A DNA stretch of 64,000 bases from Himantopus leucocephalus. Taxonomy: Eukaryota > Chordata > Aves > Charadriiformes > Recurvirostridae. Made by a program: the position numbers and the translations under genes. The stretch lies in assembly GCA_003993805.1 (NCBI GenBank), contig RSEF01000020.1, positions 10,559,698-10,623,697 of the forward strand. The letters run 5' to 3'. Shown here piece after piece: positions 52,385 to 53,560 of the stretch; positions within the stretch are counted from its first letter, which is position 1, and each line of letters opens with the position of its first letter. A model generated the notes under the pieces. That model was not told the origin of the DNA and did no database searches. It saw nothing but the letters and a program-made list of their open reading frames with translations.

Positions 52385-52567
52385 GAACGGGTTGAGAGCA
52401 GCCCTGAGGAGAAGGAGTTGGGGGTGTTGGTGGATGATAAATTCAACATGAGCCAGCAATGTGCGCTTGCAGCCCAGGAAGCCAACTGCATCCTGGGCTG
52501 CATCAAAAGAAGCATGGGCAGCAAGTCGAGGGAGGGGATTCTGCCCCTCTACTCTGCTCTGGTGAGA
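52385..52567 (+). mobile_element. CR1 LINE, reverse-transcriptase region, cut by gap
   Basis: The sequence from GAACGGGTTGAGAGCAGCCC through GGGGGTGTTGGTGGATGATA and AACATGAGCCAGCAATGTGC to CTCTACTCTGCTCTGGTGAG is the CR1 ORF2 3' portion. Its translation includes LGVLVDDKFNMSQQCALAAQ and YSALVR. In an intact CR1 the sequence would continue past GGTGAGA, but here it stops exactly at the Ns. What follows the gap is not CR1. The contig therefore ends inside a repeat. Confidence 0.92.
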
Positions 52568-52577
52568 NNNNNNNNNN
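52568..52577. other. Assembly gap of ten Ns
   Basis: Ten unknown bases join a CR1-terminated contig to a CpG island. A short fixed-size gap is often a placeholder, not a measured distance. It separates the chromosome-20-type gene CDH22 from the Z-type gene GLIS3. Confidence 0.99.
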
Positions 52578-53560
52578 GCAGCCCCATGGGGCACGCCAGC
52601 GGCGGGACCTCCCCGCTCCCCCCCGCGCCTCGCCCGGCGGAGTAAGCGTCGCTCGGGGCGGGGAAGAGGCGTCCCCGCTGCGGCGGGGAGCCCGGCGCGG
52701 CTGCCGGGTCCAGCCCGCCGCCCCGGCCGCGGCAAGGGTTAACCGGCGGGCACATGACAGCCGCGGGCCACGGGCCGTCCCGGCGCGGCCCGGCCGGGCT
52801 CTGCGCGGGGCTGCGCGCTGCCGGCGGTGCAGCGCCGGCGGGAGGTGAGCGAGTACCGCGGGGCGTCTGCGGCCCGTCCCGCCTGCCCCCGGGGTGGTGG
52901 TGGTGGGGGAGCTCGGCCCCTCCGCTGCTCCGCTCCCCGTGCCCCCCGCCGCCGGCCCGGGCGGGGAGAGGGTGAGTCGGCGGCTCCCGGCCTCCGTGTC
53001 AGAGCGGGGAGGGGCGGGGGGGGGGGGGGNGGCGGGAGAGAGAGAAAAAGCAAAACAAACCCTCTCGCGGTGAAGTCACTTCGCAGTTACTCACCTCGCC
53101 GAGCCGCCCTGCCGCGGGCATGAGGGCGCAGCGCTGTCTGGGAGGACGGGACGGACACCCGCCCGGCAGACCGGTCACCTCGCTGATGAATAAGCGGAGA
53201 TAGGTACCCGCAGGAGGAGGCGGCGGAGCGGGGAGCCTGCCCGCCGGCCGGCCCTGCGGCGGCGGGGAGCGCGCAGGGCAGCGCGAGCGGTGCGGGCAGG
53301 GCGCGGGCAGCGCGAGGGCAGCACGGAGGGCAGCGCGGGCGGGCGGCGTCGGGGGTGCCGGCCGGGGGTGCCGGTCGGGGGTGCCGGCCCGAGCGATGCG
53401 CGGCCCGCGGGGCTGCCCCCCGCGGAGGCCCACGGCCCCGATGCCGGGGGGTGTCTTCCCCCCGGGGGTGGCCCTCATCCAGGCAGCGTCCCCACGGGCA
53501 AAAAGAACCCCGGGCGTGTCGTGCTCAGTAAGGTGACAGCTCTGCCTCGTGCGCGGGGCT
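52578..53560 (+). promoter_or_regulatory. GLIS3: CpG island, likely GLIS3 promoter with 5' untranslated exon
   Basis: A CpG-dense, GC-rich block begins immediately after the gap and gives way to AT-rich DNA by about 54 kb. Plus-strand donors GGGAG|GTGAGC (exon end 52844) and GAGAGG|GTGAGT (exon end 52971) could close an untranslated GLIS3 first exon. A strong minus-strand donor, GGCGAG|GTGAGTAA (exon end near 53095), suggests divergent antisense transcription too. GLIS3 is known to use several promoters, so this may be one of them. A G-run with an N at 53030 and a short GGGGGTGCCGG tandem at 53352-53394 are inside. Confidence 0.6.

Follow-up and report, generated by a model that had tools for sequence, protein, structure and literature searches.

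Fusions that join the Z chromosome to an autosome have precedents among birds in Sylvioidea, parrots, and a cuckoo (PMC13333021, PMC8854603, and PMC7822047). The locus described here resembles the avian neo-sex chromosomes (Sylvioidea, parrots, and Crotophaga ani) in that an autosomal gene has a probable Z gene next to it, but unlike them it has no long Z block, and the remainder of the Z gene lies on a separate scaffold. A second point of comparison is provided by chimeric scaffolds in short-read bird assemblies; the excerpted results of one study report 31%, 10%, and 10% putatively chimeric scaffolds in three such assemblies, and 21%, 5%, and 5% after PCR (PMC6201548). In the same excerpt, PCR upheld the scaffold's own joint at 11 of 22, 32 of 49, and 20 of 43 suspect places tested, so that not every suspect joint is an error (PMC6201548), and GC-rich and repeat regions are described elsewhere as causes of such assembly errors (PMC7757076, in the part available). 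Our locus is like these chimeras in that sequence of one chromosome interrupts, at gaps and repeats, a scaffold that belongs to another; it differs from them, as they are described in that excerpt, in that a single small contig is involved, the order of the scaffold is otherwise chicken-like at this place, and the evidence comes from sequence rather than from PCR (PMC6201548).

The window analyzed is a 64,000-nucleotide stretch of a Himantopus leucocephalus assembly (1,108,503,483 bases in 316 contigs), corresponding to positions 10559698 to 10623697 of the 14,219,872-base scaffold C130. A first-pass annotation had noted that CDH22 and GLIS3 are joined here across a 10-N gap inside a CR1 repeat, and had proposed either a misjoin at repeat ends or a rearrangement involving Z and an autosome. 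We are highly confident that the GLIS3 piece is a misplaced contig and not a Z-autosome fusion.

CDH22 and GLIS3 exons on either side of a 10-N gap

The left part of the window holds three exons of CDH22, all on the minus strand: the first coding exon (19516 to 19740), with a signal peptide, an RVKR site, and the start of EC1; an EC1 exon (14174 to 14468); and the first exon of EC2 (3286 to 3405), the latter two matching cadherin-22 in the PDB. The 98-amino-acid EC1 piece scored 197 bits against PDB cadherin-22 (6cg7) and 155 against cadherin-7, while a CELSR1 chain with many repeats reached a summed score of 158 bits; the 39-amino-acid EC2 piece scored 66 bits against 6cg7, with a next best score of 51. 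Judged by these alignment scores, the EC1 and EC2 exons, two of the three in the window, match cadherin-22 better than any other type II cadherin. A CpG island at 47001 to 48500 (GC up to 0.856, CpG observed/expected ratio up to 1.09) is probably the CDH22 promoter region, and a short tandem repeat whose translation reads GWAGLGWAGL lies inside it (47477 to 48229). A weak match near 1.3 kb to a GLIS3 relative (27.5% identity, E value of 7e-4) was discarded, as it vanishes under a low-complexity filter.

The gap itself occupies positions 52568 to 52577 (C130:10612265-10612274) and forms the left edge of the stray piece; a scan for N runs found four in the window, of which this is the only one longer than 1 base. 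The arrangement reported in the first-pass annotation was confirmed, with the CDH22 exons to the left on the minus strand and the first coding exon of GLIS3 to the right on the plus strand, so that the two genes stand head to head across the gap. At the gap, the two contig ends lack a dovetail overlap, and within 500 bases they have no word of at least 11 bases in common. The three single Ns in the window (39834, 47249, and 53030) lie at or inside homopolymer runs of A, C, and G, and were probably left by gap filling.

To the right of the gap is a contig of 11,423 bases (52578 to 64000, plus strand) that carries the 5' end of GLIS3 and has an N run at each end, since a run of 5,311 N (C130:10623698-10629008) starts exactly at the right end of the window. 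Its first coding exon of GLIS3 lies at 59433 to 59817 on the plus strand, with an ATG at 59433 and a donor GT at 59818. A search with this exon returned 31 of 126 candidates at an E value of ≤0.01, the best of them covering 88% of the query at 97% identity and one carrying GLIS3 as its source name; by this similarity, the exon shares homology with the N-terminal end of GLIS3 proteins. Against the whole assembly (10 candidates scored) the exon had one match, the window's own, and a second copy is thus ruled out for the assembly as given.

The stray contig opens in a CpG island (52578 to 53520; GC of 0.70 to 0.84, CpG observed/expected ratio of about 0.9), as had been stated, and this island probably represents the GLIS3 promoter together with a first noncoding exon. 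The change from GC-rich to AT-rich sequence soon after the gap is likewise borne out: GC content is 0.544 to the left of the gap (range of 0.501 to 0.571 over 211 overlapping 10.4-kb windows) versus 0.406 to the right beyond the island, and the best-fit change point falls at 54.12 to 54.25 kb whether islands are masked or unmasked. This step lies about 1.6 kb to the right of the gap because the CpG island intervenes. A false joint inside the right contig near 54 kb, with the CpG island belonging to the chromosome 20 side, would place a boundary at this fitted change point, but there is no N there, a promoter for GLIS3 has to lie upstream of 59.4 kb, and CDH22 already has an island at 47.0 to 48.5 kb; we regard such a joint as exceedingly improbable.

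Repeat ends and the order of genes around the piece

The left contig ends in 183 bases (52385 to 52567, plus strand) that encode 61 amino acids of a bird non-LTR reverse transcriptase, and the gap breaks this fragment off immediately behind the residues LYSALVR; here, in the 3' tails, and in the second copy described below, we take the family to be CR1. Nearly all candidates (471 of 472) matched this frame at an E value of ≤0.01, the best with 80% identity, and several bird relatives bear the name "Rna-directed dna polymerase from m...". Among the best 120 of the 472 candidates, 72 contain the LYSALVR anchor pattern (the other 48 were excluded from counts of continuations), and 69 of these 72 continue for at least 5 residues past it, most commonly with PHLEYC (26) or PHLESC (10). 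When the same 120 relatives, whose tails extend up to 43 residues beyond the anchor, were compared to the window by tblastn, all 120 alignments fell to the left of the gap, and the 3' part of the CR1-type copy at 6575 to 6904 had no match better than an E value of 5 to the right of the gap within the window. The description of the gap as lying inside a CR1 is thus accurate for its left side, where the repeat enters the gap, and found no counterpart on the right, where the relatives searched have no match in the window. The copy at 6575 to 6904 is a second CR1-like frame, and short 3'-tail copies related to it occur at 32058 to 32112, 36608 to 36682, 49811 to 49869, and 63950 to 64000.

The last of these tails (63950 to 64000, minus strand) forms the right end of the stray contig, and the same CR1-type 3' tail, in plus orientation, begins the sequence beyond the 5,311 N. 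Three contig ends, those of the left contig, of the right side of the piece, and of the next contig, are therefore known to be repeats of one family. Sequence beyond the 5,311 N is again GC-rich (0.58, 0.59, and 0.54 in successive 2-kb intervals and 0.55 in the next 10 kb). We read the flanks of the window on C130 over 30 kb to the left and 140 kb to the right, together with two stretches further on, and searched C130:10529698-10763697 with probe sequences of CDH22, ELMO2, and the GLIS3 zinc fingers. The CDH22 probe gave 6 alignments on the minus strand (C130:10534376-10552982), which are the next exons of that gene, and the ELMO2 probe gave 19 on the minus strand (C130:10661626-10678623; 66 to 100% identical); the GLIS3 zinc-finger probe had no match in the searched interval. 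Additional N runs in these flanks measure 1, 100, 122, and 2,067 bases; gaps lie at C130:10645445 and 10696199 (100 N), 10537772 (122 N), and 10731038 (2,067 N), and the mixture of fixed 100-N and sized gaps near the window suggests two rounds of scaffolding.

The assignment of CDH22 to chicken chromosome 20 agrees with genome-wide association markers at 10.91 to 10.95 Mb of that chromosome, which the available part of one study annotates to CDH22 and ELMO2 (PMC6611142). Since ELMO2 lies to the right, CDH22 lies to the left, and the two are neighbors in chicken, both have kept their places, and the GLIS3 piece is an island between N runs. C130 at this place is an ordinary scaffold, by our inference the homologue of chromosome 20, that has 11,423 foreign bases set between CDH22 and ELMO2.

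The remainder of GLIS3 on a second scaffold

The large exon of GLIS3 is located on a different scaffold (C165:27976569-27977828, minus strand); 1,125 of 7,063 candidates matched it at an E value of ≤1e-10, and many bird entries among the best 120 are named GLIS3. C165 is 66.8 Mb in length, carries an SLC1A-type gene at 28.03 Mb, and holds 2 of the 3 DM-domain matches in the assembly, a gene content (GLIS3 large exon, SLC1A-type gene, and DM-domain genes) such as one would expect of Z; C130 and C165 would then be the homologues of chicken chromosomes 20 and Z. The window exon is also found in 7 of the best 120 relatives of the large exon, 2 of which are birds: in Egretta garzetta (contig of 199,765 bases; window exon 91% identical) and in Apaloderma vittatum (contig of 52,554 bases; window exon 90% identical), both GLIS3 exons lie in one protein and on one contig, and therefore belong together in these birds. 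In the present assembly they are split over C130 and C165.

Two GLIS3-like zinc-finger matches on C165 (27769533 to 27771247 and 27976569 to 27977828) are on opposite strands and about 205 kb apart, so GLIS3 is also disordered on the probable Z scaffold, which could reflect either an additional assembly error or a true inversion within GLIS3. Another scaffold, C281, was considered as Z on account of an SLC1A gene at 27.2 Mb and was rejected, given its size of 33.0 Mb and the GLIS1-type residues of its GLIS-type gene, which we take to mark that gene as GLIS1. Within 0.45 Mb of C281 (26.80 to 27.24 Mb) lie a GLIS-type gene (GLIS1 by these presumed marker residues), a DM-domain gene, and an SLC1A-type gene; this group parallels the GLIS3, DM-domain, and SLC1A genes of C165, and the two are probably ancient paralogous segments.

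Origin and implications of the stray piece

The repeat-end misjoin put forward in the first-pass annotation is supported by the N runs on both sides, by the return of chromosome-20-type sequence, and by the presence of the rest of GLIS3 on another scaffold. The piece is bounded by N runs and repeat ends, the flanking order is intact without it (CDH22 and ELMO2 as in chicken, with ELMO2 identified by its probe matches), and it belongs elsewhere in the same genome, as the GLIS3 large exon is on C165 and the exons are joined in other birds. We propose that, during scaffolding, a small contig that derives from the Z homologue and bears the GLIS3 promoter region with the first coding exon was inserted where a gap separated CDH22 from ELMO2. 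Three contig ends meet here in CR1-type repeats, and because of this, read links anchored in the repeat likely picked the wrong partner; the N runs, presumably assembly gaps, would then have been written as 10 N (a minimum) and 5,311 N (an estimate).

A Z-autosome translocation or fusion joining Z and chromosome 20, and thus a neo-sex chromosome, has the avian precedents cited above in its favor, but the fusions named in the consulted parts of those reports involve chromosomes 4A, 3, 4, 5, 8, 11, 25, and 17, and not 20 (PMC13333021, PMC8854603, and PMC7822047). Moreover, the rearrangement envisaged in the first-pass annotation would here involve only 11.4 kb: the autosomal block is not followed by a Z block of chromosome scale, and the right block instead stops at the 5,311 N without a long Z stretch, after which ELMO2 and chromosome-20-type sequence return. 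The GLIS3 large exon, the SLC1A gene, and the DM-domain genes all lie apart from it on the 66.8-Mb scaffold C165, and GLIS3 would be severed between its first and large coding exons were the joint genuine; we consider the chance of a fusion negligible. A real insertion of 11 to 17 kb, in which the promoter and first coding exon of GLIS3 left the Z homologue for that of chromosome 20, would be in keeping with the single occurrence of the exon in the assembly, on C130 only. It would, however, split GLIS3 between coding exons that form one protein in other birds, and the piece is flanked at either edge by N runs and repeat ends. Such an insertion is very unlikely, and with it an insertional transposition that would set these GLIS3 parts head to head with CDH22 and oblige the remaining GLIS3 on Z to use another promoter.

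We take the stray GLIS3 piece to be a commonplace assembly error, one that the available portion of the bird study describes as frequent in such assemblies (PMC6201548). Users should split C130 at 10612265 to 10612274 and at the 5,311-N run before work on synteny, breakpoints, or sex linkage, and should regard GLIS3 as divided between two scaffolds. A genuine joint, which is unlikely, would represent a move from Z to an autosome that splits a gene.
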